From a virus: a stretch of 48,521 nucleotides of DNA. Below are positions 6,006 to 46,766 of this stretch, one piece after another (position 1 is the stretch's first letter; each line of letters opens with the position of its first letter). The position numbers and the translations under genes were made by a program. The DNA lies in the IMG/VR virus record IMGVR_UViG_3300042691_040002, positions 1-48,521 of that record, one strand, 5' to 3'. The notes under the pieces were generated by a model. That model did not search any database. It was not told the DNA's origin and saw only the letters and a program-made list of their open reading frames with translations.

Positions 6006-6015
6006 GGTATATATC
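6006..6015 (-). promoter_or_regulatory. Candidate phage promoter motif upstream of the tail fibre
   Basis: The minus strand reads GATATATACC, ending 23 nt before the ATG at 5982, in the 37-nt gap after the stop of the 2567-residue gene. The same nonamer recurs before five other genes in this window (one with G in place of the final C). The promoter role is inferred from position and recurrence. Confidence 0.5.
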
Positions 6016-6019
6016 TTTG

Positions 6020-9000
6020 CTAGATTCTTTTCACATTGGCGCTCAAAGAGAAACCTGATGCAACTTTAGGGTCTAGCGTTTTTTCAATTTGATAAACAAA
6101 CGTTTCCAGTTTTTTGACAACGCAATCTTTATCAACTTTATAACCGCCGGTGACTTTTTCCAGCTCGGATAAATTAATGTCAAGCAGCTCAATGCCTTCT
6201 TGGTTTTTTACATAAAGTATAATGTCAGTGGTTTCATAAAGGTTTATGATATTTTTATCCAAATACTCACTTCGTAATTTATCAATATCAGCATTTGAAT
6301 AAGCATTCATAGGAGGCACATTATAACTACGTAATAATTCAAATTCATCGGTATTTACTCCGTTGGTCATTTCTTCTGTAAGCTGACGCTTAAGGCGTTT
6401 CCTTAAATCTACATTAATAATCAGCTTAGGTTTATCAGCATCTTGTTTGCTTTGATCTCTGACTGTCTGATTAGCCACTAAGTTATTGACACCAATTTCA
6501 ACAGCAGGTGCTATAAGCTGCGATGATACTTCTGCAGTATCAAAGGTATGAAACTCAAAAATCTTAGGAACATTCATTGCTTTAGATGCTAGGAAAGATT
6601 TTATTTCTTTCATTTCAACCAATCCTTCAACATCTGTAAAGTTTATGGTTGAAGCGTAATTGCGATAGAAGTCGTTATCCCACGATCCGTCTAATGAAAA
6701 ACAATTTCTTGTATCAACTGCAACTTCTCCAATTAGCGGATAGAGACTTTTATATGAAGAACCTCGAGAAATGTTAAGGATGTTACCGCTGGTAGACACT
6801 TTGTTAATTCCATAATTTTGAATAAGCAAAGAAAAATCAGACTTGCTGTTAATGTGTGTGTTACTTAACAAGTAGTCTTTTTCAAAATGGCGGGAAAATT
6901 CGTTATCCTCTCGTAGCCAAAATGATAAGATGTCTCGTGATTTAGGTTCATAATAACCACGGTGACGAAGCATGTACTCTTGTAAATTTGTGTCAACTAA
7001 ATTATAACCGATAAGTTCTGTGTTTAAGTATTCTTGCGGTTTGTCGGTGTCAACCGAGTAATGAAGAACATTAGTCTTTATTATTTGATCAGGGCTTACA
7101 AACTTAAATCTGTATTCAATAGTTTCTACCTTTTTTCCACCTTCTACTTTGTAGTATTTAATTGCAGAATCTTCACTATTAATTAATGAAGATATATTTC
7201 CAAATGTTAAGAAGTTTTTGATAGAAATAAATCCTTGTGTTCCTCCTTCGATAGCAGTAACCGATTTTTGGTATAGCGATCCGTAGGTAGTGTCAATAAC
7301 ATTTGTTGAGTTTCCAATAAGGCCCCAGAAATTTGGTGGATAAACTTCATTTGTTGGTGGAGTCACATTAAAAGAAATATTTTTTTGAGCTGAACCTAAT
7401 TGTATGTTAAGAGGAGTAATTACATCATTTGAAGATTGATTATCAACAACCGAACGCATGATAGTTCGTACATTCGTTTTTAATATAGAATGAATTGAGA
7501 ATAAGAAGCCATCTTGACCGTATTCTTTTGCCACAATAAATCCACTTAATCCAGTGTTATAGATAAAAGGGTAAGAAGTAGGAAACCGATAGCCATTTTG
7601 AATGGTTGTTAGTTCTTCTTGTAGATTAAATGGCACTGTGTTATTAATACCTTCAAAATTTGCGCTAAATACTGCGTTATTCCAGATAGGCTGGTTATTT
7701 ACATAATCTAGTAATCCCCCTAACTTTTTATTTCCTAATTGCAAATACCCTCCACCTAAAAATCCTTGACGAGGCCGAAGAATAGCATTACTTTCATAAT
7801 TACCCGATGAAAATGCCGTGAAGCCATTGCTGTATGGTAAAAAGTTTCTTAGTTGACCTGAGGTTTTTAAGAGTGGAAACGGGTTAAACTTTTTTTGCTG
7901 TTGATTTTGATTTTTCAGAATATCGTTCATGAAATACTGAATGGCATAATCATAATGGCCGTGCTGAGTTCGGTAATCTTCAAGTCTGACAGTAATGACC
8001 ATTAGAATTGACTTATACTTATCGTTTTTAATAAATTCTATTTCAACAGGTGTTTCCTTTTCATATGAATTGTATGAAGTAAACCGTGTAATTGCCGCAA
8101 ACTTGTAACTGTCCAGCCCTGTGGAATTTGTGATTTCAGGGTAATTAATTATTTGATACAATTGCGAAGTTTTGTCACCTGATGAAGGATTTGAAAGAGT
8201 TATTCTATTAGATGTAGGGTTTATCCCAATTACACGTGTTCCTATTGGTAATCCTTCGCCTACCACTTCATCACCTATTGCAATGTTACCTATAACATTT
8301 CCATTTACCAATGTTATGTAATCAAGTCCTTGCTGTGCATCAGCAAAGAAAGAAAGACTGGTTAATCCTAATGTGTTTTTTAGAATTCCTTGTATTTTTC
8401 CTCCTCTAAATAACGTTTGTGATCTTCCCAATCCTTGATTGTACGTAAAAAACGTATACCGCTCTTCACGAGATTTTGGCACAATTTCTCCAGCAAAAGT
8501 TTTTTCTGTAGGATAACCTACGGAGAAATACTTGGTAAACCAATCATTGCTATCATCTGTTGACATAAGATCGTACCATGACTTCCCACTATACGCAATA
8601 TCGCTCAACTTAGCAAACATATACGAACGTGAGAAATCTAAGCTTTCGTCTGGATAGTTTTTTGGAAATGAATCTAAGTAAGGAAATTCATGTGTCAATA
8701 CAGAGGTCTCAGCAAAATTAAGTTGATCATTAGGACTAAGGTTATTAATACCGAACGCTAATGAATTGTTTAATCTATAATAGTTGTCTCTTGCATCAGT
8801 GCCTTCTTGTACCCACTTATTAATGTAAGGTACTACTTTTGATTTAACCGCAAAATCTTTGTTAAAATTTTCTCGTAAACGATCGTATTCAGAAAGAAGA
8901 AGCTGGTAAGTAAACGCTTCAATGTACTTTCCTTGTTCTTTAAATGTTTGTATGTCATCTGCGTCTTGTATACCTTCAATATCCTGCAACCCGGCAAATC

Positions 9001-12000
9001 CGTTAAACAGCGGAAGGTCTCTATCTGTAGAATAATTGTAGTTTTCTATTTCTAGATAGTTAGTAAAAACAGTGCTAGGAATATACGTTATTCTAAACTT
9101 TTCCGGAAAGATATTAACAGTCTCACCGGTTGTAACATCATTAACAAGCAAATGTTTACGATTAAAATTTCGTTTCCCTACGCCTCTGAATTGATAGCTA
9201 TTAGAGTACGGGGATTCATTTGATACTGGAGTATAAGATCCATCTACTGAAAAAAGCGGATATTCGGTTTCATCATAATCATACAAAGGATAAAATGTGT
9301 TAAATATAAGCTGCGTTCCATCGCTTGCACTTTCTCTAACACGTAGCCATTCTACATTTACCCATGTTTTTTCTGCTGCATCATATGCTTCAACTTTTAA
9401 GGAATAACTATTATCTACTAAAGCCGAAATTCTTCTAGGTGATATAAGTTTACCGCCTGCGTCTTTTAATGATATTTGAAAGTTTTCAAAAAGAGGTAGC
9501 TCTACGCTTTCACCTGTTTTTAATGTTTCTTTAAAGAAATACGGTAATACTTCTAAAGTAGGAGTGTATGAATAGTCAGAAAATACAAAATCAAAGTCAA
9601 ATTCTTTAACAGGAAATATCGAAAATATACCTAAGATAGGACGGTATAACTTATATGCAACTATCCTATCATCAATTGATATAAAGAATTCCTGTGTTGT
9701 GTCTTCTAATTGAATGATAGAATAATCGTTTAAATCGGTAAACCCATTAAGGTATTCATCTTCATCATAAACAGGTTCTTCCAAGTAAGGCAAACTGTAA
9801 ATGTATTTTCCTTGCACTTTCCACGCTTTCATTCTACTATAAAGCCCCTTCTGTGCCTGATACCATTGTTGTGTCTGCAAAGAGCTATTAAGAATGCTAA
9901 ATTCTCCGTAAGAAAGCGTTACAGAATTTGTGGAGGCTGCCTCTTTGTCTATGATAACGCTGTTTGCGTTTACATCTACAATAGTAGCACCAATAGGTAT
10001 TCCTTTACCTACAACCGACGATCCAACATATAAGTTTTCTGTATTTACAGTGATAGTTTTTGATCCTGCTACAATTAATGAGGATTTCTTGATTCGTCGG
10101 TCAGAAAAATACTTTTGACCATTAGCAAAAGAAATCCTTGCTCGGTTACGATTTCTTTTTACGCCTCCTATGAAATTTTGTGATATTAAAGTAGCTCCGC
10201 TAACGGTATATGCAATTTCTACTCCGCTGTTCTCTGGTATTTGGCTAAGATCTAATGAAAGTGGAATTCCGTTTTCGGTAAAATACGGATCAGAAACAAC
10301 CCGCCATACTACAGTTCCCGTGGTAGTTGCCGATGCGTAAGTAGAAACATCTGCGCCTTTTCTACCAAAAATAACCCAAGAATTTGTGCCTCGAGAAATT
10401 GATAGATAAAAACTTACAGGTTTCGGGTCATCAATAGACTCTACAATGGCAGGCTTTAAATCAATAGAAGAATACGGAGATCCACTAAGTTGCTTAATTG
10501 CTAATTCCCTGTTTACATTACCGCTTTCATAAAAACCTAAGTTTGCGTATTCACTAGCATTTCTTAAAACACGTGTAATGACAATATCATTCCCATCTTC
10601 ATACAAAAGGTTTGACCTCATATAGACTATGTTTCCGCTGGCCCAAGCTTGAACTGGTGAATTTTCAAATGAATTGGCACATTTTGCAAGAGCCTTTGCT
10701 ACTTGTTCCGCCGTCCCTTCATTGGAAAAAGTAGAACGGTAATACGCGCCATCTGGATCATACACTGGATAGTCCCATGCGTCTCCCGGCTGTAAGCCAA
10801 CTCCGTTTGCGTCCATTACCCATGTAAATTGTTGATAGTCAGGTTTGTAAAAAGCATTTAAGTTATTCGATCCTGCTAAAAGAAATACCTCTAATGAAGG
10901 ATAATCAACTTCTACTCGCCACGCATCATTAATTACATACGGTGAAGAAAAATCTATTAAGCTAATGGTTAAATAATTATCTATGTTTAAGTAGCTGTTT
11001 AACGCTGTTAGCGTATATGTAGCGTCTCCTGTTTTATGAAATCCTACAAATGAGTCTGTAAGAACTGTAGCAGCAGGTAACGCGTTTCCTGGCAATCCTA
11101 AATTTTGCAAGGTTACCGATGTTGCAGTATTTACTTGTGATACTTTATAATACCCGCCGCCAATAATATAAACTTGTTCACCTGCGGAAAATATTGAACT
11201 GTCAATAACGCTTATAGTTACGGTTAATCCTACCGCAGGCTGTGTAAAGTTTGCTGTTAACTGCGTAACATCTTGATTTATTAAATATTCAACAGTTACA
11301 TCATTTCCAACAACAGATGTAACTTGTATGTAGTATGTGTTCTTTCTACCTGGATCGTTATATCTTCTAACTTCAAGACGAATTTCTTCATCATTTGCAA
11401 ATACGCCGGTTCCGTTTTGATCAATTATGTGAAGGCGTGTTTGCGATTTTCCTGAATTTAAAAGTTGCGCAGGAAACTGCGCTACGATTTCATTAACCCC
11501 GCCATAAGAACTTATGTCTTCTTGCGTATCAAAAAGCTGCAGCTGTGTTGCACGAATGTACTCAGATGAACCCGGCGTACCGTAATCGATTTCAGTTAGA
11601 CGATTAACTCTTTTAAAGATATCATTTCTGTCTTTAACATAAAAGAATCTTAAAGGATCGTCAACCATTGCTGGTAGAGGAAACTTGCCAGCTACTAATC
11701 CTTGATACTCAGGAATAATAGAGGTGTTATTCTGATAAGAAGCATTATGGTAATAGTGAACAGGAAGTTGAATTCCGTTAGGGTTGGTTTGAACAAAAGA
11801 ACGAGTACTATAAGGCTCTCCGTCAACTTTAGGTTTAGGTGAAGGCGTTTGATCAGCAATCTTTCCTAAAACCGTAGGCTCTATTTCAAACTCAGCAAGC
11901 TGATTCTCTGTTACATATAAACCATAATACCGATTGATTCCGTAAAGAGGTGCCTCTTCATCGTCAAAAAGAAATTCTAAGTTAACTAAGTTTGTACTGA

Positions 12001-17337: not shown

Positions 17338-17351
17338 CCTGCAATTATTTT

Positions 17352-19505: not shown

Positions 19506-19521
19506 TCAGTATTTAATCTTT

Positions 19522-20361: not shown

Positions 20362-20386
20362 TTCTATGACTTATTTTTCCTTTTTT

Positions 20387-20395
20387 GTATATATC
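20387..20395 (-). promoter_or_regulatory. Candidate phage promoter motif before the distal tail block
   Basis: The minus strand reads TAGATATATAC; the nonamer GATATATAC ends 25 nt before the ATG at 20361, and its first G is the last base of the glycosylase stop codon. It is followed by an A-rich stretch (AAAAAAGGAAAAATAA). It would let the fibre genes be transcribed separately from the repair genes upstream. The role is inferred. Confidence 0.5.
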
Positions 20396-21246
20396 TACGC
20401 CTTCTTTGTGCGATAAGATTCTGGGACATCTTTTTCCCACTTTTTGTCAAACCAGAACATTCTACCTGTTTTATCTCGAATTGACATCTTTTTCCCATAG
20501 CATGTCATCCATTGATCAAAATTTTCCGATGTCATGCCTTCAGGATTAAACCAGTCTTTAAGTTGCCCTCCTCCTAACTGATACGCATCCCTAACACAAA
20601 GATTGGTTACGTGAATTAGTTCTTTAAATTTTTCGGTTGAAAGCTCGTTTACCGCTTGAAACGGATTAACATTAATGCGGTCAATAATTTCAGCGCGAAG
20701 ATAATTACCTACTCCATTAAACCAACGCTGATTCATCATCAGCTCATTTAGCGGTTTATTAAAGTCTTTTTTCTTTTGCCAATTTGCTATTAACTCGTCA
20801 GAAAATTTTTCATATTCTGTAAGAGGACAAGAACCCCGATTTTGCGAGAAACCCGGAACCCATCTCCACTTAGCAAACCTACGTGGATCATAGAGAATCA
20901 ACCAATTTCCACGAGTTGAACGAATTCTTAAATGCCCGTGTTTAAATGCTTGTTCTAAGCGTGGACTATCTTTACGAATGAATATCCAATTTCCGCTCAT
21001 TCCCATGTTGCAGAGAAGATCCTTTGTTACAGCGCCCTGTATATCGCCTCCTACCAATTCGGTATGCAATAGCAATTCTTTACCTCGACAGATTGCACCA
21101 ATTGTAAATATGCCGCTTTCATACACATCAAGCTCAGTAGAAACTTTAGATACCTCTGATTTTTCAATCTTATCAAAGAAAGGCTCTTGTGCGACTACAT
21201 AATTAATAAAGTCACCCATCAATCGAACTTCTGCTAATTCTGGCAT
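20395..21246 (-). CDS. Fpg/Nei-family DNA glycosylase/AP lyase, apparently zincless
   Basis: Base-excision enzyme that removes oxidised bases and nicks the abasic site. The start MPELAEV places the nucleophile Pro2 and catalytic Glu3 exactly as in Fpg/Nei. Lys56 (RGKELLL), NMGMSG (80-85), DPRRF (120-124) and the helix-two-turn-helix stretch NQRWFNGVGNYLRAEI (172-187) match the family. The C-terminal region keeps a TGRMFWF segment with the conserved finger Arg (262), but the four zinc-binding cysteines are absent: Cys249 is the only cysteine after residue 217, and DKK stands where CPRC normally lies. This resembles the zincless finger of NEIL1-type enzymes. At 283 residues the length is normal. 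The gene overlaps the lipoprotein stop by 1 nt (TAATG). Substrate preference cannot be read from the sequence. Confidence 0.93.
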   Translation of the reverse strand: MPELAEVRLMGDFINYVVAQEPFFDKIEKSEVSKVSTELDVYESGIFTIGAICRGKELLLHTELVGGDIQGAVTKDLLCNMGMSGNWIFIRKDSPRLEQAFKHGHLRIRSTRGNWLILYDPRRFAKWRWVPGFSQNRGSCPLTEYEKFSDELIANWQKKKDFNKPLNELMMNQRWFNGVGNYLRAEIIDRINVNPFQAVNELSTEKFKELIHVTNLCVRDAYQLGGGQLKDWFNPEGMTSENFDQWMTCYGKKMSIRDKTGRMFWFDKKWEKDVPESYRTKKA

Positions 21247-21560: not shown

Positions 21561-21564
21561 ATGT

Positions 21565-22647: not shown

Positions 22648-23068
22648 TCCTTTTATTGATGAAAGATTAGAAATTCGTTGGATTGACAGCATTCAAGGTT
22701 GGGGTGTTTTTACCAGTCAACTAATTAACTCGGGAGCTCTCATAGAAGTGGCTCCCGTTGTTGTTTATCCAAGAAAAATTGCCAACGTCTCATTGTGGGC
22801 TTGCCAAGCAGAAGGTATTCCTGATAAGGATCTCAAGATTGACCAGTACTCGTTAGAATGGCAAGGTAATAATGCGTTTCCTCTTGGATGGACAGGAATC
22901 TATAATCACAGTGACAATCCTAATTGTCGATTCTATGCTGATTATAAACTGTCGCTACTTGGAATAGTTACACTGCAAGAAGTTGCAGCTGACGCACAGC
23001 TGTTAATTAACTATGGTCAGACTTGGTTTGAATCGAAAAAGAGCTATATTACTATGTATTCTTTTTAG
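22622..23068 (+). CDS. SET-domain protein, probable lysine methyltransferase
   Basis: SET domains transfer methyl groups from S-adenosylmethionine to lysine side chains. The diagnostic pieces are present in order: GWGVF (26-30, the G-x-G cofactor loop), YNHSDNPN (94-101, matching NHSxxPN), and INYG (129-132) with the catalytic-type Tyr131. At 148 residues it is a minimal SET domain, without the pre- and post-SET cysteine clusters of histone enzymes, like small viral and bacterial SET proteins. Its substrate is unknown; host ribosomal, translation or nucleoid proteins are candidates only by analogy. It is on the plus strand between minus-strand genes, overlapping the small zinc-ribbon gene upstream and, tail to tail, PhoH by 17 nt. 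Confidence 0.85.
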   Translation: MNSKQLVTNPFIDERLEIRWIDSIQGWGVFTSQLINSGALIEVAPVVVYPRKIANVSLWACQAEGIPDKDLKIDQYSLEWQGNNAFPLGWTGIYNHSDNPNCRFYADYKLSLLGIVTLQEVAADAQLLINYGQTWFESKKSYITMYSF

Positions 23069-23807
23069 GCGGCACTAAGCTTTCTTCGTAATCATCAAAA
23101 ATACGCTCAATCTCAATGATCAGCTTATTTCTTACAATATCCTCGCGCGCAAACTCCATTACAGCAATCTCTTCGTGATCACCAAAAAGTTTAATAATCT
23201 TGCTTAAAGAACTAGCGTCTCTCTTAGAAATATCAATCTGTTTAGTATCACCCAACAAGATCATCTTAGAATTGTCTCCAATTCTAGTCATGGTTGAACG
23301 CATGTTCTTGAGAGTAATGTTTTGCGATTCATCCACAATTATAATGCTGTCATCGATACTCCGCCCACGAATGTAAGCAAGCGGAGTTATTTCGATTAGC
23401 TCGCATCTTTCTAATTCTTCAGTTAATGATTTGCCAATTATCTTATGAAAGTTATCCATAAAGGATATCATAATTGGTTCCATCTTTTCTTTCAGTGTTC
23501 CTTTAAGAAATCCAACTTCTTCTCCTTCCAGGACAGTAACGCTTTTTGCTACAATGATCTTTTTGTAAACACCTTTTGCTAAAAGTCGTAAAGCCTCTGC
23601 ACAAGCAACGTAAGTTTTACCTGTTCCTGCAGGACCTGCGCAAACTATGATTTGATTGTCATTAATTAGACGAACAAATTTCTTTTGATTTTCAGTTTTG
23701 CATTTAAAAGCAATCTTGATCTTTGTCAAGGCTTTCTGCTGTGGGTTAAGTTCATCGCGCTCAACGCGCTCAACTTTTTCTTTTGGGGGATTATTTCCTT
23801 TTTTCAT
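23052..23807 (-). CDS. phoH: PhoH-family P-loop ATPase
   Basis: Walker A GPAGTGKT (58-65) and Walker B IIIVDES (155-161) are intact, with the PhoH-type segment GEEVGFLKGTLKEKMEPI (95-112) and the sensor-like LLGDTKQID (184-192). The 251-residue length is the core ATPase without extra RNA-binding domains. PhoH is common in phages; it is a cytoplasmic ATPase linked to RNA or nucleotide metabolism, but its role in phages is unsettled. The N-terminus is Lys/Glu-rich. Its ATG overlaps the stop of the HAD gene by 4 nt (ATGA), so the two are probably translated together. Its 3' end overlaps the SET gene. Confidence 0.95.
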   Translation of the reverse strand: MKKGNNPPKEKVERVERDELNPQQKALTKIKIAFKCKTENQKKFVRLINDNQIIVCAGPAGTGKTYVACAEALRLLAKGVYKKIIVAKSVTVLEGEEVGFLKGTLKEKMEPIMISFMDNFHKIIGKSLTEELERCELIEITPLAYIRGRSIDDSIIIVDESQNITLKNMRSTMTRIGDNSKMILLGDTKQIDISKRDASSLSKIIKLFGDHEEIAVMEFAREDIVRNKLIIEIERIFDDYEESLVPPKKNT

Positions 23808-24388
23808 CCTACTTTTATTGTTTGAATTCTAACATCTTTTTCACCTTCTATTTCCTTGGCTAGTTCCAAATTTTCTTGGTTATCATCAAAGAAGATCAGA
23901 TCTTTGTATCCGCTGTCAACCAGCTGATGGATGGCTTCTTTTTTTCTTTCTGCAATTGATCCCTTAAAGCCGTACTTAGGGTCATTGACTGCAATAACTA
24001 AATCAGGATGTATATCTATCTTGTTTTCCAAGAAAAAGTCTCGTATTAGCTGCGATTTAGAACGCGCAGTAACAATTGACACATGAACACCTCTACGATA
24101 AAAGTCAAGTAACTTATTCACAACATCGGTAATAAAAGAAGATTTTCTTAATATCTCTGCATCTTCAAATTCATCAAATGAAAGTGTGTTTTTTGGATCG
24201 TGTGTATAGTGGTTGAACTCTTCCGGGGTTAATTCTATTATAGTTGATCCTGTTTTAGGATTTAGCACTTTAATTTTTGCTGCCGATATAATTAAAGTAT
24301 CATCCAAGTCAAAAATTGCTAGTCTTTCACTCTTTTTACCTTTAATTATAACTTCATTTAAATGCTTACGTAGTTTTCCGGACTCCAT
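23804..24388 (-). CDS. HAD-superfamily phosphatase
   Basis: HAD motif I FDLDDTL (nucleophile Asp27, acid Asp29), motif II SIVTARS (Thr107), motif III lysine around 149-150 and motif IV FFDDN (Asp168, Asp169) are all present, so an active aspartyl-phosphate phosphatase is likely. At 194 residues it resembles phage HAD proteins and the 3'-phosphatase domain of polynucleotide kinase, but there is no kinase P-loop, so substrate assignment (nucleic-acid 3' end, nucleotide or small molecule) is open. The ATG lies inside the end of the 463-residue structural gene (31-nt overlap), and it overlaps PhoH by 4 nt. Confidence 0.85.
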   Translation of the reverse strand: MESGKLRKHLNEVIIKGKKSERLAIFDLDDTLIISAAKIKVLNPKTGSTIIELTPEEFNHYTHDPKNTLSFDEFEDAEILRKSSFITDVVNKLLDFYRRGVHVSIVTARSKSQLIRDFFLENKIDIHPDLVIAVNDPKYGFKGSIAERKKEAIHQLVDSGYKDLIFFDDNQENLELAKEIEGEKDVRIQTIKVG

Positions 24389-32532: not shown

Positions 32533-32533
32533 C

Positions 32534-34234
32534 TTATGTGTTCTTTATATTGTCAACGTTAATTCTGTGAAGTTCCATGTTTAATGACTTTGGTGTATCT
32601 TTTGCTGAGAATGCAATGTTAATACTACCCGGCTTTGATTGATCTGAAGAATCATAGTAAAAATAGCCGGATCTATCGGGCCACCCACCACGAACAAGCG
32701 CGTATTCACCTCTCCCGATAACAACATCGCCAAACACATCAATACCTTTTTCTGGCAATGAGGCGTTTGCAGGATCGCTCTTAAAGACTTCATTTTCTTC
32801 GGAAACAAACCAAAGATTAACGCTGTCAACACCCTGAATATTTTCAATAATAGCAATTAAGTCGGATTTTGGAATTCTATCTCTTCTTCTGTTTTTCAAA
32901 AAGTAATCACTACATTTTGAAACAATATCTTGGCGAATTGCGTCTTTACTAAACCCTTCAAATGCAGTAATGTTAACGTTTAACACATACCGTTTAATCA
33001 CTGGCTCCAAAATCTTGATAATTGTGGTTAAAATCTTTTGACCGCTTTGCTCAATAAAATCATAGATTTTTTCTTTTTCATCAGCGGATAAAAAGAAAAG
33101 CGAAACTGGGACAGTAAAGTAGTCATCATTCTGGGCTTTTCTTTTATTAACATCAGGTATCAAGAAAAGATAGACCACGTTATCATCAGCTATGTAATCG
33201 TCGTCAAATGTACTGAAAGCATCAATAACAGAAAAAATGTTAAACTTTTCTAAAAAGTAAACATAAGAATCCGCATTTGCTAATACGTATGCTCTTGACG
33301 TTTTAGGAGAAAGAACTCGTGTTAGTTCAATAGGCTCGGGGTCAGAACCAAATATTACCGATTTTTTAATACTAATATCAATAACAGAACTTACAGTTAC
33401 TGAGTTACCTGCGGTGTCAAATACGTCATCAGTAAATTGAAATTGCGGAATTTCTCCTAACAGTATGTTTCCAGCATTGCCTGCGGTTGTTAAGTATTCA
33501 ACTCGAATTGACGATCCTAAGTCAGGGCGTTTTCCAAAAAACCCATTTCCAAAATACAAATCAATTCCTTCATTGATTCCCGTCTTTACAACTACACCTT
33601 TAGCCTCATAGGGCAAGTCATAAACCGAATCATAGAGTTTCCACTTTTCACTGTTAACATAAACGTTAATAAAAAAGTTATCAATCTGTGAGCCTTTCTT
33701 TGGCCTAATAGTATATGACTGTAAAGCTCTTCCTGTTCCAGTGACGGTTTGCGCTTCAATCGCACCTTGCGTTATCTTTACCTCGAGAGTGTTTTTCCCC
33801 GTAAGGTTCATGCGAATTTCCTCATTCTCCGCAGTAATCGTGTAAGTAAGACCTGTGGAATTGTCAACAAGACGAGTGAAATTAGGTATGATGATTGTGT
33901 TTCCGTAAATGTCTAGCGGGTTTCCATTATAAGTTAATAAGACCGTTCCCGATGCTGCAATCGCGCGAGTTGGATTATGACCAGCTATCCTAGAAAGGCT
34001 TCGAATCGATATATCGCGTGTTGCTGTATAAATGTTTAATTCTGTGATGCTATCTTCTATGTAATAAAAGATCAATTTGCCCATGTCAATCATTACATTT
34101 AGTAATTGACCATAGGCACTTGCAGGTGTAAATACATCACCTACCTGTAAAAACTTTGAAGTTAAGTAAGCTCTTGCATCATCATAGAGCTGATCGTAAC
34201 GAATTCGGTTAAGCTTAAAAATATCTAAAGCCAT
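32534..34234 (-). CDS. Baseplate wedge protein, gp6/J-like
   Basis: The N-terminal region, with LTSKFLQVGDVFTPASAYGQ and then RDISIRSLSRIAGHNPTRA (about residues 24-92), followed by an SGTVLLTYNG beta segment and an FGNGFFGKRPDLGSSIRVEY passage (about 225-245), matches the layout of J-like/gp6 baseplate wedge proteins. The C-terminal part (IQGVDSVNLWFV, then VRGGWPDRSGYF) fits as well. gp6-type proteins form the ring that holds wedges around the hub. At 566 residues it is close to T4 gp6 (660) rather than the shorter P2 gpJ. The gene follows the gp25-like gene by 9 nt, the usual neighbour of gp6/J in contractile tails. A GATATATAC copy lies 48 nt upstream inside gp25. Confidence 0.85.
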   Translation of the reverse strand: MALDIFKLNRIRYDQLYDDARAYLTSKFLQVGDVFTPASAYGQLLNVMIDMGKLIFYYIEDSITELNIYTATRDISIRSLSRIAGHNPTRAIAASGTVLLTYNGNPLDIYGNTIIIPNFTRLVDNSTGLTYTITAENEEIRMNLTGKNTLEVKITQGAIEAQTVTGTGRALQSYTIRPKKGSQIDNFFINVYVNSEKWKLYDSVYDLPYEAKGVVVKTGINEGIDLYFGNGFFGKRPDLGSSIRVEYLTTAGNAGNILLGEIPQFQFTDDVFDTAGNSVTVSSVIDISIKKSVIFGSDPEPIELTRVLSPKTSRAYVLANADSYVYFLEKFNIFSVIDAFSTFDDDYIADDNVVYLFLIPDVNKRKAQNDDYFTVPVSLFFLSADEKEKIYDFIEQSGQKILTTIIKILEPVIKRYVLNVNITAFEGFSKDAIRQDIVSKCSDYFLKNRRRDRIPKSDLIAIIENIQGVDSVNLWFVSEENEVFKSDPANASLPEKGIDVFGDVVIGRGEYALVRGGWPDRSGYFYYDSSDQSKPGSINIAFSAKDTPKSLNMELHRINVDNIKNT

Positions 34235-34243
34235 TCTGATGTC

Positions 34244-34606
34244 TTATTTTGCGACGACACCAAGATACTTTGTACCGTCTATGTATATATCAATGTAACA
34301 TAAATCCCTCACGGTTCCGGGAACAAAATTGACCTGTATATCTATGTTGTAATTAGGTGCTTCGGGAACATATTTTGCTATTTGCGCGTAAAAATCCTTT
34401 TGTATCTGATATGTATTTGCGTTAAACTCAAACAATAAATCATTTAGACTTAAACCTAAATCGGGCACACCGAGTACCTCACCTTTGTTGGTAAAAATAA
34501 TCATACGCAATTTTGTCAACAGCGCCTCCAAAGGATTATTGGTCTCTAGTATAGCATAGTTATACAGAGGATCATTTGCATTACGACAATAGATTTCCTT
34601 AAGCAT
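34244..34606 (-). CDS. Baseplate wedge protein, gp25/GPW-like
   Basis: At 120 residues it has the size of the gp25/GPW family, which joins the wedge to the sheath and hub. The diagnostic region is FTNKGEVLGVPDLGLSL (residues 38-54), equivalent to the family's R-x-GER...P-x-(F/L)-G stretch, then LNDLLFEF. The C-terminus (VNFVPGTVRDLCYIDIYID) fits the beta-strand end of the fold. Despite the old lysozyme name, no catalytic function is implied. It lies 9 nt before the gp6-like gene, which strengthens both calls. Confidence 0.85.
   Translation of the reverse strand: MLKEIYCRNANDPLYNYAILETNNPLEALLTKLRMIIFTNKGEVLGVPDLGLSLNDLLFEFNANTYQIQKDFYAQIAKYVPEAPNYNIDIQVNFVPGTVRDLCYIDIYIDGTKYLGVVAK
34283..34291 (-). 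promoter_or_regulatory. Internal copy of the GATATATAC motif
   Basis: The nonamer occurs inside the gp25-like coding sequence (codons for DIYI) and ends 48 nt before the gp6-like ATG. It may be an internal promoter or merely a coding coincidence; the longer spacing makes this the weakest of the seven copies. Confidence 0.25.
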
Positions 34607-34631
34607 TAATTAGGTAGTAATAGTTTTTATC

Positions 34632-35363: not shown

Positions 35364-35368
35364 AGCAA

Positions 35369-35602: not shown

Positions 35603-35711
35603 TTCCTTTCAGCTTATTTATGACTTCATCGTTCTTTGCAATCTGCTTAAGATTTTTTACGATGTTTTTACGATTACCTTTTGGTTTTCCGTTTTTCTTA
35701 CCTTTTGCCAC
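35580..35711 (-). CDS. Small lysine-rich ORF with GTG start (43 aa)
   Basis: GTG at 35711 shares its first G with the last base of the amidoligase stop (TAGTG), and the frame ends at TGA 35580, inside the next gene. The product begins (M)AKGKKNGKPKGNRKN and continues as a short lysine-rich helix (IVKNLKQIAKNDEVINKLKG). With about 13 Lys in 43 residues it could bind nucleic acid or an acidic partner. It fills the only gap in this stretch, and the stop/start overlap is the same type used by other genes here (e.g. 47693), which supports it. No family is recognised. Confidence 0.5.
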   Translation of the reverse strand: MAKGKKNGKPKGNRKNIVKNLKQIAKNDEVINKLKGNETHTNI

Positions 35712-37099: not shown

Positions 37100-37118
37100 T
37101 TATGATTAAACTTCTATT

Positions 37119-38324
37119 TTAGCTTTCGGCAGGGATTGACAGAAAGATCTTGTCGTTATGAACACGATCTACTGAAACCATCACGGTTTCACCTACCGAA
37201 TAGATTTTCTTTTTTAATTTGATTTCCTTTTGCGAAATTAGGCCAACCATGTCTTTTTGAATTTTTACCAATGTCCCAAAAGGCTGAATTGAAATTACTT
37301 GTCCGTCGCGAATTGTTCCTAAAAACTTATCTTTAAAATCTTCAATTTCTTGACGACGAATTGACGGATCCTCGTCAGTTAAAATGATTTTCTTATCCGG
37401 CGTAATTTCCTTAATCCAAAAATCGACTTGCATGCCAGCGCGGTATTCTCCAGCAGCAACACCGTCTTTCATAGCAGGTGTCATTTTACTGCTGTGTATT
37501 AACCCTGTAAAGATTTCTTCAAATTCTACAAATATACCGTACTTAGCCATTCCAGTAATAACACCAGTGTATTTCTTATCAAGATCCAATTCGTCAAGCA
37601 TCCTAGGCATAATAGTGTTAACATACTTCTTAAACGAGAAAACAAAGGTTTCGCTCTCTTTTAAATAGTCTTCAACCATTACTTTAATTTCCTTGCCTAT
37701 CATTGAATCAAAGTCTCTAACAATGTTTGTTGCAGCAAGAGAGCCAGGTAAGAAACCGTTAATTCCCATAACGTTAATGATGAATCCGCCACCGTTCTTT
37801 TCCATGATTTTTCCATAGTACGCAGCAGTACATCCTTTAATCTGCTCAAAGAACTCTGAACGCATTTTCAATTCATGACCTTTTGAGATTGACCCTTTAA
37901 GATATGGCTTAACACTCTCAATGACAATATGGTATCCTTGCTCCAAGAACACGCTTTTACCGTCCTCGGTTTTTAACCATTCGACCAATTGCACTGGAGT
38001 CAGATTAAGCATATTGCAGAAATGCTTTTCATTTTTTGGATCTATGACTGCATCAACAAACCCATTTAAAGACACGTGGATGTCTTTTTCAGTGATGTAA
38101 GTTATATCTATAATCTTACGGTAGTCGCCTACACGTGGTTCTTTAGACTCAATTGTGGCTATTTTAGAAAGCTTTTCAAAATAATCAAGTGCATAAGCCT
38201 CATGATTACATACTGCTACGTTATACTTTTCCAAGATAGCTTTGTTAGGGCTCTTACGGTGATAACTTTCTAAAGTGTTCCAGTTAATTTCGTTTGTGAT
38301 GGACGTTTTTTGAATTGTTTGCAT
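37119..38324 (-). CDS. Ribosomal protein S1-like RNA-binding protein
   Basis: Three S1 (OB-fold) repeats are clear: about 160-235 (AAYYGKIMEKNGGGFIINV...GFLPGS), 250-318 (YTGVITGMAKYGIFVEF...GLIHSS) and 332-398 (FLGTIRDGQVISIQPFGTLVKI ends at 354...VGLIS). Residues about 66-145 may be a degenerate fourth. Host S1 has 4-6 repeats in about 550 residues; this 401-residue form is shorter, with a divergent N-terminus (MQTIQKTSITNEINW). It could compete with or modify host S1 on the ribosome, or bind phage RNA. A GATATATAC motif lies 13 nt upstream, after a 66-nt gap, so it may begin its own transcript with the amidoligase downstream. Confidence 0.88.
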   Translation of the reverse strand: MQTIQKTSITNEINWNTLESYHRKSPNKAILEKYNVAVCNHEAYALDYFEKLSKIATIESKEPRVGDYRKIIDITYITEKDIHVSLNGFVDAVIDPKNEKHFCNMLNLTPVQLVEWLKTEDGKSVFLEQGYHIVIESVKPYLKGSISKGHELKMRSEFFEQIKGCTAAYYGKIMEKNGGGFIINVMGINGFLPGSLAATNIVRDFDSMIGKEIKVMVEDYLKESETFVFSFKKYVNTIMPRMLDELDLDKKYTGVITGMAKYGIFVEFEEIFTGLIHSSKMTPAMKDGVAAGEYRAGMQVDFWIKEITPDKKIILTDEDPSIRRQEIEDFKDKFLGTIRDGQVISIQPFGTLVKIQKDMVGLISQKEIKLKKKIYSVGETVMVSVDRVHNDKIFLSIPAES

Positions 38325-38390
38325 ATTTGAGATTTTGGTATATATCCGAGTTATTCTTCTTTTGCTTTAATTTATTAAGTGATAATGGAA
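38325..38390 (-). promoter_or_regulatory. 66-nt intergenic gap with candidate promoter GATATATAC at 38338-38346
   Basis: The minus strand carries GGATATATACC, ending 13 nt before the S1-like ATG at 38324. It is one of the longest gaps in the minus-strand block, and the AT-rich run upstream of the motif contains no clear terminator hairpin. The motif fits the pattern seen at 6006, 20387, 42368, 46707 and 46743. Confidence 0.5.
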
Positions 38391-38858
38391 TTATTTTATC
38401 CCACCCATTTTAATAGGATCTAAGGGATCAAATGTTAATTCGATAGGTACTGGATTAGGAACAGCAGAAACACCTGCGCCTATCGTTACTGTACCAATAG
38501 GAAGGGTAATGTAAATCGAAGCCTTTTTAAGATGGCTATCAATAATGTCAGCAATCAGAGGTGCTAATACAGTTGCCATGTTATTTGAAACATCTCTGGC
38601 AATATGATCTGACAGCGAATCAGCCCAATCTATTGCAACTTCGGTCCATAATCTTTTCTTATAAACTTCAACGTCGAGTCCTGCTTGTTGAGGGTTTGCT
38701 CGTATCCATGTATCAATTTCTTCTTGTACCTCATATAGACTTTTAGTTCCTGATATTGGTGCTAATAAATGTGTGTTAAGATCAGCTTTAAGTGTAGGTT
38801 CTAATTTCTTAAAAGCATCAGCTAGTTCTAATGCAAGCGTGGGTGTAATTAACGGCAT
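38391..38858 (-). CDS. Baseplate-region protein of unknown function (155 aa)
   Basis: The N-terminal two-thirds is helical and acidic (LTPT-like start, LADAFKKLEPTLKADLNTHL), the remainder has a beta-like Pro/Val/Gly stretch (ITLPIGTVTIGAGVSAVPNP) ending PLDPIKMGGIK. No named family is recognised. It follows the spike gene after a single base, suggesting co-translation and a role linked to the spike or hub, for example a tip or chaperone protein. This is contextual inference only. Confidence 0.6.
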   Translation of the reverse strand: MPLITPTLALELADAFKKLEPTLKADLNTHLLAPISGTKSLYEVQEEIDTWIRANPQQAGLDVEVYKKRLWTEVAIDWADSLSDHIARDVSNNMATVLAPLIADIIDSHLKKASIYITLPIGTVTIGAGVSAVPNPVPIELTFDPLDPIKMGGIK

Positions 38859-38859
38859 A

Positions 38860-39666
38860 TTATTTTACTTTTGTTACAGGTGTAGCACCACGACCACTCA
38901 GCTGTGCTACTGTCATTGGTACAACAGGTGGTGTAGTAGGTGCACCTAAGTTACCTAAGTGCGTGTGCGTATTAAAAAGTGTCAAGAAGGTGTCACCGAG
39001 AATAACGCGTTCTTGCGCCCCTTCACCTAATTCAATTGTTGATGTTTGGTCAAGAACTATTGTAGGTGAAGTTACTTTAACTTCTTTTTGTGACACTATG
39101 TTAATTTGTGATCCTATCAGTTCAATGATACTCTCGGTACCTTTGTGTTCAATGGTAATACTGCTGTCAGGATTAATTATGATTTGTGAATCTTTATGAA
39201 AGAGTGTAAGACCTTTACCCGGAGTGTAAAAGATTTTCATCTCTTCATCTACATCATAAGCTAAAACATGGCTATTAAGATAAGAATCGGTAATCTCAGC
39301 CTGAACGTCAGGATTAATTGTTTGAATTGAAAAGTATTCTGGCGAGTAAATGCTTCCTTCGTTAAACCTGACTTGTACGTATGTACCTACTTTAGGAATA
39401 CTGATATCAGCAAAGCCGCCGTCTGGCCCACCTGCAAACATCTTTCGTCCACCAGGATGTGCCCATGGAACTGCTTCCGGGTTAACCTCTTTCTTTTCAA
39501 TTGCACCGGTTGGAGTGCCTTTTGGATCAACTTTAGATTCTTCAGATTCATAAAGACCATAAACCATGATCTTACAACGGCCTTCTCTCTCAGGATCGTC
39601 ATTATCAAGTATCTTTCCTAAAAAGTATTTTCCCGCGAGTGAATCTTTGCTTAGACTTTTGCCCAT
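38860..39666 (-). CDS. Baseplate central spike protein, gp5/VgrG-like, without lysozyme domain
   Basis: Residues about 10-120 form a gp5/VgrG N-terminal OB-fold (YFLGKILDNDDPEREGRCKI ends at 33; IPKVGTYVQVRFNEGSIYSP at 90-109). Residues about 140-220 show alternating I/V/S/T strands with IELIGSQINIVSQKEVKVTS (20 residues), the usual triple-stranded beta-helix of the spike. The C-terminus has the tip-type NTHTHLG ... APTTPP motif (232-247). At 268 residues there is no room for the lysozyme domain found in T4 gp5. It would puncture the outer membrane; a separate peptidoglycan hydrolase is not visible here. It is flanked by the 897-residue protein (3-nt gap) and the gp27-like hub. Confidence 0.85.
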   Translation of the reverse strand: MGKSLSKDSLAGKYFLGKILDNDDPEREGRCKIMVYGLYESEESKVDPKGTPTGAIEKKEVNPEAVPWAHPGGRKMFAGGPDGGFADISIPKVGTYVQVRFNEGSIYSPEYFSIQTINPDVQAEITDSYLNSHVLAYDVDEEMKIFYTPGKGLTLFHKDSQIIINPDSSITIEHKGTESIIELIGSQINIVSQKEVKVTSPTIVLDQTSTIELGEGAQERVILGDTFLTLFNTHTHLGNLGAPTTPPVVPMTVAQLSGRGATPVTKVK

Positions 39667-39669
39667 TCG

Positions 39670-42363: not shown

Positions 42364-42367
42364 TTAT

Positions 42368-42376
42368 GTATATATC
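42368..42376 (-). promoter_or_regulatory. GATATATAC motif just before the 897-residue gene
   Basis: The minus strand reads TAGATATATACATAAATG: the nonamer ends 4 nt before the ATG at 42363 and begins on the last base of the hub stop codon. If it is a -10 element, the transcript would start at or next to the ATG, giving a leaderless message. Confidence 0.4.
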
Positions 42377-43884
42377 TAGCCAGTAGACGGAACTGGCCAC
42401 TCTCTGCGTGCAAGTCGGAAAATTTGATACAGATTGGGAGGTAATTCCTTAGGAGGATCCTCGTAATTTGTGGATTCAGGTGACATGTTATACATTATCT
42501 TCATTCCGCTTACCATGTAAAACCCACTATAGAATTGATCAGCAACTGCAGGAGTTTCATTTGTTGGAATAGTTGATTCATTAGGTGTAGCATCAGAAAC
42601 TCTTTTTAGCGTATCATCTTGTGTGATTAGTATGATAGGAAGTTTTTCTCCTCGGTAGACATTGGGATTCCAGCGTTCAACGTTCGCTTCTATATACATC
42701 TTATTTAGCTCTTCACGATTTCGTGTATTCCAGAGTTCTGAATAAAGGTACTTATCATGAACGTCTCGATACTGTACACCTAGCCAATACTTTTTATTTT
42801 GTGTTATCCAAGAATCATCTTCCGCAGTGCCATCTGCTTTCTTAGGGTATGCTCTTCCCTTTAATAGAATCTTTTTATCCGCGCTTCCTTCAGAGACAAT
42901 AGGATCAACAAAGATATCCCAGGTTTTCCCACTTTTTTGATCAAAGAATTGCGCAAAACTGCGATATCCGTATCTACGAGAAATTTCCGAACTGTTATTA
43001 ACGACCCGATAGCTCTTGATGTACATATTGGTACCACTGACACTTGCCATATCAGTTAACAGTTTTTTTGTTTGCTGTTGGGTACCTTCTTCAAAGTTAT
43101 CATCACTATTAAAGTCTTTCATTCCTGTAATGTCAAGAATTGCGGCATTTAGTTTTTCTTCACCTTCTACTTGTGCATTAACATTAATAAAGTTTAAATG
43201 ATAATAGACATCAATAAAGCAATCATAAAAACATTTTTCGTCTTTCCAAGCGTGGTCTGTAACATGCCGTATGAAATTAAAAAGATTGTCACCTGCGCAG
43301 ATCCAATTCTGCGTATCGGTAGTGCTAGTTTCATTTGTAGCAAAACCCATTTTTAGTTTCTGCGAAACTTGTTTAAGAACATCAAACGAAGTACCATTAA
43401 AAGACTCAATAATTTCGTCTCGGAGATTTTTAATGTAGAGCTCACCTTCAATTAGAATTGTCGATCCTCTTCCTTCAATACCTCCACCGCTATCATTGAC
43501 ATTTGTTATCACATAATCATTGCGTATAGGTTTGAAAGCATCATTCTTGGCACGAATAAAGATTGACACAATATCACCGTCTTTTGGCATACTGTGCGAC
43601 TTAAAGACAGCTGTATCAGCTAAAAGAACTTTAAATCTTACCGTAGGAATAAATCCAGTAGCGTCAAGAAGAAACTCTAAGATTTCCTTCGTCTTAAAAA
43701 CATATCCGTTAACAGTGATTAGCGGATAGCTTGTTCCTGTGTCTTTTTGATACTGTCTTCCTTGTACACCCTTTTGATCGCCAAGCTCATCGCTGGTTCC
43801 CGTGAAAACATCTTCCAGAATAACATCATCTAGCTTAATTTCCGGTTTGACAATAGAACGAATTACACTTGATTCCTGAGACAT
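42376..43884 (-). CDS. Baseplate hub protein, gp27-like
   Basis: The 502-residue protein has the usual order of gp27-type hubs: a beta-rich start, a helical stretch (FDVLKQVSQKLKMGFATNE, about residues 168-186), then WICAGDNLFNFIRHVTDHAW (about 193-212), and a C-terminal beta domain ending FRLARREWPVPSTG. The hub joins the tail tube to the spike. It is followed by the 897-residue and spike genes, consistent with central baseplate assembly. It is separated from the 206-residue gene by one base. Confidence 0.75.
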   Translation of the reverse strand: MSQESSVIRSIVKPEIKLDDVILEDVFTGTSDELGDQKGVQGRQYQKDTGTSYPLITVNGYVFKTKEILEFLLDATGFIPTVRFKVLLADTAVFKSHSMPKDGDIVSIFIRAKNDAFKPIRNDYVITNVNDSGGGIEGRGSTILIEGELYIKNLRDEIIESFNGTSFDVLKQVSQKLKMGFATNETSTTDTQNWICAGDNLFNFIRHVTDHAWKDEKCFYDCFIDVYYHLNFINVNAQVEGEEKLNAAILDITGMKDFNSDDNFEEGTQQQTKKLLTDMASVSGTNMYIKSYRVVNNSSEISRRYGYRSFAQFFDQKSGKTWDIFVDPIVSEGSADKKILLKGRAYPKKADGTAEDDSWITQNKKYWLGVQYRDVHDKYLYSELWNTRNREELNKMYIEANVERWNPNVYRGEKLPIILITQDDTLKRVSDATPNESTIPTNETPAVADQFYSGFYMVSGMKIMYNMSPESTNYEDPPKELPPNLYQIFRLARREWPVPSTG

Positions 43885-43885
43885 A

Positions 43886-44506
43886 CTATGAGTTGTTTAA
43901 TCGATTCTTAACAATACGCGCAATGAATTCACTTTTTGAAATAGGACCTTCATCAGCTTCGCTGCTTTTTGTTACGTTAGGACCCATGTAAATTTTCCCA
44001 TTACGAACTTGAATTTCAGTATCACCAAAGTCAGCGTAGTTAGGAGGGAGCGAATTATTAGCTGGTCCAGAAACAGGCTTTCTTGCCGTGTCCCTCTTGC
44101 TAAACGACTGTAATTGAGGATCAATTTTTGATTTCTTTTCCGGTGTTAAATATTGTTGGCGTACATCTTCCTTATTTTTTGCGCTGTTATTAACCGCACG
44201 AACATTTCGACCAAGACTATACAGGTCATACGTTACCAAGATATCGCCTTCATCAATGGAAAAAGGATTACTGATACCGTTAAACTTTAATATCTTTTCT
44301 GCAGGATCTATGTAGCCATACATCTCGTTTGATATTAGATCAACTCTCATAGACGTATCTCTGTCAACAAGAAAGTAGCCGATTCCTGTTGGCGGAAGCG
44401 ACGCAGATTGAACTACAATATCTTTTTCTAAAAAATTAACAATTTGATTTCCATATCCATCTTTATAGAATGGCTTTGTATCTTGTGTTATCGGAAAAGT
44501 TATCAT
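43886..44506 (-). CDS. Baseplate wedge protein, gp53/LysM-like (206 aa)
   Basis: Residues about 49-92 (DTSMRVDLISNEMYGYIDPA, 20 residues, then LKFNGISNPFSIDEGDIL) fit the R-x-DLIS..(M/L)YG......NGI.(D/N)P(F/Y)...GD pattern of gp53/LysM-like baseplate proteins that help dock wedges to the hub. The middle (about 105-150) is charged and disordered, and the C-terminus (IAYMGP-type beta then SKSEFIARIVKNRL helix) is short. The ATG overlaps the stop of the 727-residue gene by 1 nt (TAATG). The match is by pattern only, so the exact gp number is uncertain. Confidence 0.65.
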   Translation of the reverse strand: MITFPITQDTKPFYKDGYGNQIVNFLEKDIVVQSASLPPTGIGYFLVDRDTSMRVDLISNEMYGYIDPAEKILKFNGISNPFSIDEGDILVTYDLYSLGRNVRAVNNSAKNKEDVRQQYLTPEKKSKIDPQLQSFSKRDTARKPVSGPANNSLPPNYADFGDTEIQVRNGKIYMGPNVTKSSEADEGPISKSEFIARIVKNRLNNS

Positions 44507-46689
44507 TATTTATCCATGTATTTTACGCCATGACTATACACTGAGTTTAGAACGTTTTTTACCTTTGGCGCAGTTGATTGCTTGTAATAGCCAAAGATCT
44601 TATTGACTTCTTGTGGATCACCTAATAGCGGATTATACGCTTTTCCTCCACCTTCGCCGCCTGCGTTACGTCCTTCTCCATTGCGATTAGCCTGAGCAGT
44701 TCCTATATTATTACTGTTAGAAGTTGACGAGTCAACCGCCGATGTTTGGGTTGATGAAAATGTATCTTCGTATCCTTTAGGTAAGGAATACATGCGTCCT
44801 CTTCCTTTGTTAAACATTGATTCAATTCCTGCCCGGTCACGAGGCATACCGTGCTCTAATGTAATAGTAGCCTTTAGTTCGGTTGGAAAATCGTCAGGAC
44901 CCAATTCATCGTTAAACTCAATTTTAATACCTGTGCAAATAAGATTACCTATCATCATCATGGGGTTTAGCGGGCTTCCAACAGTTAGATGCCATTCACC
45001 TACCGGTGCGCCTGTCAAGATAGAATGAATTCCTTGCATAAACCCTTTAGAACCGCCACTACTCAATTTCATGGCTGAACTAGCTGCGCCAGAGGCAATT
45101 GATTGTAGACCGCTAACTGGGTCATCAAGAAATTTACTAAAAACATCACCAAAGTTTTTTAACGCAGTAGTGAACTGCGTACTGAGTGCTTCAAAGAAAC
45201 CGCTAGGATTACCTTGAAGCCATGCTGCACGTCCAGCGTCGCCTCCTAAAAACGGTTCCAACGATCCACCTGCTCCTTGCGGCATATAACGATTCATCCC
45301 ACCCCAAAATGAAGCCTCATTATATGTTAGAATCATAAGATTACCTAAGATGTCCAAGAGAGCTGCCTTTGAATTAATACCGCCAATTGAGCGAGCTGAA
45401 TATTCAAATACAAGCGAAATTTCATGCTTAAATGTTATACCTCTTTCACGAGCTTGCGTGTTATCAACGACGGTTACGGGTCCTAAAATCTTATTTGCAT
45501 AAGGACCATTGTTATAGGGATCTGGTGGAGGACCTCCATCGCTAGGTTTAAGAGCATCCGCGCCACCTGTTAGAAACCCGAGTGCTTTAGCTAATCCAGG
45601 TAAAGGGCTGTCCGGATTTCCTGGACTGCCGCTATTACTAACTTCCCAAACATCAGCCTTAACTTCTTTCCATTTGAGTCCTGCTTCAATTGGTCCCATG
45701 ATTGTGGATATCTTGTTTCCTGGATCTTCACCAAGAAAAGTTATTGCTGTTGCAGCAGGTGTTAAATTCTTTTCTTTAACTTCTTTTTTAGCTTCTTGGG
45801 AACTTCCTACTGAATCCAAGACAGGAAACGTATACCGTCTTAAGGTAATCATATAGTTGAGAGGAACTTTCTTCCACCACTTTAAAAAGACAAAGTCTTG
45901 GTACTTATACGGAAATTTAATGTTTTCCGGCTGCTGACACCAATTGACCAACTCGGTAACCGTTAATTCACCCATTGATGATTGGTTCTCACCTTTTAGA
46001 GTTCCTTGTGAGGAAACATCATAAAAGCGAGGTTGATTCTCTCGATCAATTAGATATTGATTTCCTTGCTTTCCTGCTGCTGCTTGTAAGTTAATGTAAG
46101 CATTGTAGTTCATGATTGATGGAACCCCCCAAAACTCAGTGTACTTGCTTTTAGCCGCATCAGGTGTAATCTTAGAACTCGATGCAGAAGTTTGCGCTCC
46201 ACCCGGTCCTTCCACCACAAATCCATCAACAAGCGCAGCTTGTAAACTTTCCGTATTGGTAAAAGAATAGACAACTGATCCATCATCGCCAACAACGTAT
46301 ATTAGTCTAGGATCTAAAGGAACCTCCGTATTGCCGAAATTAATAGACGATGTGCTATCGTTGTTTGTTTGCTGCGACGGGTTGGTTTCATTACCTGGTG
46401 GTGAAATATCCGGCCAAACAGATTTACCCTGACTGCGTAATTGCGCTGGTGTTTCTAGCGTGGTAATAATTTGTGACCAACTCTTTTTCGGTCCAATACC
46501 TTCGCTGTATAAAAGCTGATCTTGTGATTTAAGTAAACCATAACTATGTATTAGGCCTATCTTAGCAATAAATTCATAATCGTACGGAGGGTTAATTGGA
46601 GGATTTTGCGATGCTTGACCTGCAACGCCAGCCTCTCCTGCATCATTCTCTCCTAGTTGTTCTTCCGCGGTCTCTCCAGTAGGTTCCAT
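44506..46689 (-). CDS. Baseplate/tail-tube junction protein (727 aa)
   Basis: The N-terminus is acidic and Pro/Gln-rich. The conserved part is near the C-terminus, residues about 556-636: GEWHLTVGSPLNPMMMIGNL (20 residues), FNDELGPDDFPTELKATITL and HGMPRDRAGIESMFNKGRGR. Such a segment is typical of large-phage baseplate proteins near the tube, perhaps counterparts of gp48/gp54. Gly/Ser-rich linkers follow (about 660-690). There is no signal peptide or clear membrane helix. It is the first gene of the minus-strand baseplate block, with a GATATATAC motif 17 nt upstream. Confidence 0.65.
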   Translation of the reverse strand: MEPTGETAEEQLGENDAGEAGVAGQASQNPPINPPYDYEFIAKIGLIHSYGLLKSQDQLLYSEGIGPKKSWSQIITTLETPAQLRSQGKSVWPDISPPGNETNPSQQTNNDSTSSINFGNTEVPLDPRLIYVVGDDGSVVYSFTNTESLQAALVDGFVVEGPGGAQTSASSSKITPDAAKSKYTEFWGVPSIMNYNAYINLQAAAGKQGNQYLIDRENQPRFYDVSSQGTLKGENQSSMGELTVTELVNWCQQPENIKFPYKYQDFVFLKWWKKVPLNYMITLRRYTFPVLDSVGSSQEAKKEVKEKNLTPAATAITFLGEDPGNKISTIMGPIEAGLKWKEVKADVWEVSNSGSPGNPDSPLPGLAKALGFLTGGADALKPSDGGPPPDPYNNGPYANKILGPVTVVDNTQARERGITFKHEISLVFEYSARSIGGINSKAALLDILGNLMILTYNEASFWGGMNRYMPQGAGGSLEPFLGGDAGRAAWLQGNPSGFFEALSTQFTTALKNFGDVFSKFLDDPVSGLQSIASGAASSAMKLSSGGSKGFMQGIHSILTGAPVGEWHLTVGSPLNPMMMIGNLICTGIKIEFNDELGPDDFPTELKATITLEHGMPRDRAGIESMFNKGRGRMYSLPKGYEDTFSSTQTSAVDSSTSNSNNIGTAQANRNGEGRNAGGEGGGKAYNPLLGDPQEVNKIFGYYKQSTAPKVKNVLNSVYSHGVKYMDK

Positions 46690-46766
46690 AACGTTAATCT
46701 ATTTTTGTATATATCAAATGAATTCAGCTCATCTTGTTTTTAGATATATAGAAAAACTCTTTTTTC
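46690..46766. promoter_or_regulatory. Divergent promoter region, two GATATATA motifs
   Basis: A minus-strand copy (46707-46715, GATATATAC) precedes the 727-residue gene by 17 nt; a plus-strand copy (46743-46751, GATATATAG) precedes the 98-residue gene by 15 nt. The two copies face away from each other and are followed in each direction by A-rich sequence (AAAAATAG and AAAAAC). This is the best evidence that the motif is a promoter element rather than a coding coincidence. Confidence 0.6.

Follow-up and report, generated by a model that had tools for sequence, protein, structure and literature searches.

The 48,521-nt stretch of DNA analysed here (the window) raises the question of what is done by a short AT-rich nonamer that recurs just before start codons, and of which polymerase might read it. 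Arguing by analogy with the T4 late element TATAAATA, the initial annotation had proposed a late-type promoter recognised by a phage polymerase or by an altered host enzyme. On the evidence assembled below, we consider it highly likely that GATATATA is the core of a gp55-dependent, T4-type late promoter of a large Bacteroidota-infecting myovirus. It is very probably a late-gene start switch, a re-spelled T4 late promoter common to a large group of giant phages, and this clade-wide extension goes beyond the claims originally made for the window.

Copies of the element and their position before genes

An exact count over the whole window gives six copies of the 9-mer GATATATAC, all on the minus strand, which is the strand of their genes, and a seventh copy, spelled GATATATAG, on the plus strand ahead of a plus-strand gene. 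All positions given in the initial annotation were recovered, except that the first copy begins at 6007, one base from the 6006 reported. The elements, with the two baseplate genes around the internal copy, are as follows.

6007-6015, minus strand: GATATATAC element before a fibre-like gene, 5982-1 (at least 1994 aa, open at the window end)
20387-20395, minus strand: GATATATAC element before gene 20361-19522 (279 aa), overlapping the stop of an Fpg-like gene
34283-34291, minus strand: GATATATAC element within the 3' end of the gp25-like gene, serving the gp6-like gene 34234-32534
32534-34234, minus strand: baseplate wedge (T4 gp6-like) gene (PHROG phrog_219, E 7e-29)
34244-34606, minus strand: gp25-like baseplate wedge gene with the internal element (phrog_261, E 5e-5; phrog_43, E 9e-5)
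38338-38346, minus strand: GATATATAC element before gene 38324-37119 (401 aa)
42368-42376, minus strand: GATATATAC element before gene 42363-39670 (897 aa), overlapping the stop codon of the upstream gene
46707-46715, minus strand: GATATATAC element before gene 46689-44506 (727 aa); predicted +1 at 46702
46743-46751, plus strand: GATATATAG element before gene 46767-47063 (98 aa)

Taken from 6007 upwards, the seven 9-mers stand 24, 25, 48, 13, 4, 17 and 15 nt from the next start codon, in agreement to within 1 nt with the distances reported earlier; the core GATATATA likewise has seven copies in the window, all of them 5-49 nt 5' of a same-strand start codon. When the core is set at -13 to -6 and +1 is placed by T4 geometry (PMC1524935), the predicted +1 is an A at all seven sites; for the 46743 element it falls at 46756, giving a leader of 11 nt. 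T4-like baseplate genes of the window comprise gp6 and gp25, and a neck/adaptor protein is also encoded. The giant fibre-like gene (1-5982, minus; at least 1994 aa) has collagen-like Gly-x-y repeats at its beginning. The orthologue in relative G008 of the gene at 37119-38324 (minus) contains three S1 RNA-binding domain stretches, which is odd for a virion gene block, and genes resembling Fpg/Nei DNA glycosylase, PhoH and polynucleotide kinase lie within the virion block as well (20395-21246 and 23052-24388, minus).

The recurrence exceeds chance: the 9-mer is expected 0.43 times in the window, and none of 100 shuffles gave six copies. Enrichment upstream of genes is also present, GATATATA being the most enriched 8-mer in the 50 nt before window starts (6 of 7 copies, p 5.6e-11 uncorrected; here and below, starts were assigned by a simple ORF picker and p-values take no account of shared ancestry). 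Among related genomes it heads the ranking before starts in G003, and in G006, G008 and G009 only an overlapping word stands above it. In a pool of ten genomes, leaving out G009 (which overlaps G008), a same-strand start follows within 60 nt for 86 of 113 copies, as against 5% pooled over 280 same-composition 8-mers in an anagram control, with GATATATA the best of the 280. The same blind script, run on T4 as a positive control, placed TATAAATA first (19 of 32 copies). In AT-rich genomes (G008) unconstrained EM was drawn towards A-rich leaders, and its output was set aside. The window group also has an excess of TGAATATA before starts (36 of 118 copies), perhaps as a variant form of the element, perhaps as a signal in its own right.

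Conservation and re-spelling in related phages

Ten relatives were obtained via the 1204-aa protein. Their proteins are 28-75% identical to those of the window, and the element is conserved at orthologous sites: it precedes 26 of 42 orthologues of motif-bearing window genes as against 4 of 147 orthologues of the others (Fisher p 5e-17). All nine relatives have the element ahead of the 279-aa gene, at 15-31 nt, although the flanks have largely diverged. The 6007 element is retained in G003, G004, G005, G007 and G008 and the 38338 element in G001, G003, G006, G007 and G008, while orthologues of the 897-aa gene have AATATATA 4-8 nt before the ATG in G001, G002, G006, G007 and G008. Copies had been reported on both sides of the divergent junction; this pair (46707/46743) is confirmed and is itself conserved, occurring exactly in G008 and G006 and as AATATATA variants, with A at -13, in G001. 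Taken singly, the 46743 element is retained before the orthologue in G008 and G006, and the 46707 element in G008, G002 and G003, with A at -13 in G001.

The copy at 34283-34291 had been described as lying inside the gp25-like gene. It lies 48 nt 5' of the gp6-like start at 34234, and GATATATA is retained at this site in G001, G002, G003, G005, G006, G007 and G008. Because this copy precedes the gp6-like gene, in an arrangement kept in seven relatives, we count seven start codons served by the element: all six originally listed, with the gp6-like gene added. Eight genomes retain GAT ATA TAy within the gp25-like gene, although ATA accounts for only 19-39% of Ile codons, a point weakened by shared ancestry. 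Elsewhere, a GATATATAC copy at 190470 of G008 falls within the prohead protease-scaffold gene (L020:9221-11092, that is G008 189221-191092), and 25 nt further on there is an in-frame ATG at codon 217, which suggests a late promoter for a nested scaffold product.

A megablast search against phage records gave no match for the window. Its annotated relatives are Sphingomonas phage PAU, Tenacibaculum phages pT24 and PTm1, Chryseobacterium phage MA9V-1, Flavobacterium phage MaF61, the Prevotella Lak phages and the metagenomic LR756500-504, of which LR756501 has 735 kb; these are jumbo or huge phages whose hosts are mostly Bacteroidota. The longest genomes (>634 kb), like the Lak phages, belong to the Mahaphage clade and have Bacteroidetes as their predicted hosts (PMC7162821).

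Several of these lineages have their own spelling of the element enriched before starts: GATAAATA in MaF61 (13 of 22 copies), TATACATA in PAU (39 of 52), AATAAATA in Lak-A1 (33 of 79) and, ranked second after an A-rich word, AATATATA in LR756501 (63 of 139). The form NATANATA fits every lineage variant as well as T4 TATAAATA, with the changes confined to -13 and -9 and positions -12, -11, -10, -8, -7 and -6 kept; GATAAATA of MaF61 is a one-step intermediate between the T4 element and GATATATA of the window. Such a natural series of gp55/promoter pairs would allow the letters read by gp55 at -13 and -9 to be assigned.

A gp55-type sigma factor, late genes and alternative readings

The T4 late-sigma family, phrog_234, matches a 114-127 aa protein in G008 and G004, and has homologues also in LR756500, Lak-A1, pT24 and MA9V-1; a clade profile built from four members without T4 adds PAU, PTm1, MaF61 and LR756501, and weakly G006. 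Since profile A2 contained T4 gp55, which would have made the comparison circular, the PDB was searched with the profile lacking T4, and T4 gp55 (7d7c_F) came first (E 4e-4). Consistent with this, the best PDB match of an AlphaFold model of the gp55-like protein (pLDDT 84) is gp55 in the gp55-RNA polymerase open complex, 7d7c_F (TM 0.75, rmsd 1.4 Å, Foldseek probability 1.00, with an E of only 0.012), far ahead of bacterial sigma domains. Most of the homologues end in a conserved C-terminal tail, S[LI]...[IL]Y.[LI], resembling SLDFLYE, the tail of T4 gp55 that constitutes its clamp-binding epitope. The gp55 gene is seen in the relatives; the window, 48.5 kb of a larger genome, is without it. 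No match to T4 gp33 (phrog_254) was obtained in 11 genomes or records, though a diverged gp33 could escape such a search, and none to T4 gp45 (phrog_223, PF09116, PF02916) in the relatives, T4 itself being matched in one search; a gp44-like clamp loader is present in the relatives.

The link between sigma factor and motif can be approached from the opposite direction. Eighty contigs were fetched by the clade profile on gp55 similarity alone, and in the 37 non-redundant loci analysed no 8-mer is more enriched before genes than GATATATA (73 of 113 copies, p 2.5e-89). Over the relatives and the gp55 contigs together, [GA]ATATATA occurs within 60 nt before 79 of 134 virion genes and 2 of 129 replication genes (p 1e-27, ignoring relatedness), the latter class comprising clamp loader, helicase, polymerases, gp46/47, RecA-like and other genes. 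Among virion classes, the element stands before 18 of 18 protease, 26 of 33 portal, 22 of 32 sheath stabiliser and 2 of 2 sheath genes. A few motif-positive genes are glycosyltransferases or homing endonucleases, which counts against the late-promoter reading.

The proposal of a late-type promoter thus gains support from site geometry, association with late genes, conservation and the presence of a gp55-type sigma in relatives. In the mechanism we envisage, a small phage sigma homologous to T4 gp55 would bring host RNA polymerase to GATATATA, and transcription would begin some 6 bp further on, most often at an A, without a -35 element; the element would thereby drive virion operons, among them divergent pairs, and in places would do so from within the preceding gene. 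We infer that gp55 recognises the element, that the polymerase is the host enzyme, where exactly +1 lies and that expression is late.

A promoter for a host sigma factor (a -10-like element or the Bacteroidota -7 box), active early and late, would also account for a motif that is AT-rich and -10-like in phages whose hosts are mostly Bacteroidota. We regard it as unlikely: the Bacteroidota box, TAnnTTTG, is unlike the motif and is not enriched in the window group, no upstream -33/-35 element accompanies the sites, the motif is nearly absent before replication genes, and the relatives encode a phage sigma of the gp55 family.

Slightly less probable again is a signal acting at the RNA level in late mRNA leaders, whether a ribosome-binding, RNA-processing or regulator-binding site. 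The motif is nearly always 5' of start codons, and the hosts make low use of Shine-Dalgarno sequences, which leaves room for other leader signals. Against such a role, the distance to the ATG ranges from 4 to 55 nt, most genes are without the motif, gp55 co-occurs with it, and T4 TATAAATA, a known promoter, has the same main spacing in the same pipeline.

As to the polymerase, phages of the phiKZ type have promoters that are likewise short, AT-rich and without a -35 element, so that a phage-encoded enzyme (phiKZ nvRNAP-like or single-subunit) might be considered. This we judge very improbable. The beta-prime domain (PF00623) was silent in 15 genomes or records, while 14 of 14 controls matched; a search for single-subunit RNA polymerase gave no match, but its control was silent too, so that this search carries no weight. 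Because no multisubunit RNA polymerase domain was found, we favour a phage sigma acting on host RNA polymerase, so that of the two enzymes originally proposed the phage polymerase is the one disfavoured. Chance recurrence in AT-rich intergenic DNA, which the 38% G+C of the window and the AT-richness of gene-upstream DNA might invite, is refuted by the shuffles, the anagram control and site-by-site conservation, and can be dismissed as wholly implausible.

Site geometry and comparison with known systems

In keeping with a gp55-dependent late promoter, the information content of aligned sites reveals no -35 or other upstream element and an A-rich stretch at -1/+1. Spacings to the ATG, taken over 253 distinct sites, are bimodal, with the main peak at 15-28 nt and another at 4-9 nt. 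Most near-start copies of T4 TATAAATA lie 13-34 nt away, the same range as the main mode. The lower limit is sharp, with 1 of 253 sites closer than 4 nt to the ATG, which is consistent with a start of transcription about one helical turn beyond the element; in T4 none is closer than 13. Under T4 geometry a distance of 5 places +1 on the A of the ATG, and the 42368 element sets it exactly there for the 897-aa gene. Before the sheath-stabiliser-like gene (MGxFLHK...) a distance of 4-7 nt is kept in several contigs, with the next Met 21-51 codons on. The close spacing at this gene and at the 897-aa gene therefore leads us to predict leaderless late mRNAs wherever the element is 4-5 nt from the ATG, which would set these phages apart from T4 in a way that can be tested.

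Resemblances to T4 late promoters extend to the 8-bp TATA element, the lack of a -35 element, the AT-rich downstream region, the gp55-family sigma, the position before virion genes and the main spacing to the ATG (PMC2988020). The differences are that the window group has G or A at -13 and T at -9 and does not use the exact T4 consensus, that the clade gp55 is shorter (114-130 aa, as against 185 aa in T4), that gp33 and gp45 are not recognised in the relatives, and that a subset of sites lies 4-5 nt from the ATG, whereas T4 has none. Lineage-specific re-spelling alongside a diverged gp55 has a parallel in Aeh1: late promoters of Aeh1 and other T4-like phages read CTAAATA, the Aeh1 change being at -12 (PMC1524935), whereas the lineages compared here keep -12 and vary at -13 and -9. 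The jumbo phages phiKZ and AR9 also have short promoters without a -35 element, but use their own multisubunit RNA polymerases, and the AR9 late promoter, AACA-6N-TA/G (PMC5312081), is unrelated to the window motif; no such polymerase was found in the 15 genomes or records searched. Mahaphages and Lak phages (PMC7162821) share with the window and its relatives homologous virion proteins, gp55 and variants of the NATANATA form (AATAAATA in Lak-A1, AATATATA in LR756501), but differ from it in the letters at -13 and -9. A search of openly licensed papers found no description of late promoters in these phages, Mahaphages and Lak phages included.

Drawing these features together, we tentatively advance a joint reading, to which we give somewhat less than even weight, in which Bacteroidota jumbo and huge phages of up to 735 kb share a minimal gp55 system (a sigma of 114-130 aa, with neither gp33 nor gp45 recognisable), with a promoter re-spelled at -13/-9 by lineage and some late genes leaderless through 4-5 nt spacing, e.g. 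the tail-sheath-stabiliser-like gene in several contigs. A gp55-dependent late promoter would in itself extend the T4 gp55 system to Bacteroidota phages, and the element offers a sequence by which to recognise late genes in the largest phages known, for which cultured models are few or lacking.

Other words are enriched before genes in parts of this group. The host-type Bacteroidota box TAnnTTTG was rejected as an early promoter of the window group, where it is without enrichment before genes; such enrichment is seen only in pT24 (L136-L145), Lak-A1 (L116-L125) and LR756501 (L096-L115). In PAU (loci L085-L095) a second motif, spelled AGTATAAT (25 of 50 copies) and TCGTAGTA/AGTACTAT, is strongly enriched before starts and is possibly another promoter class.
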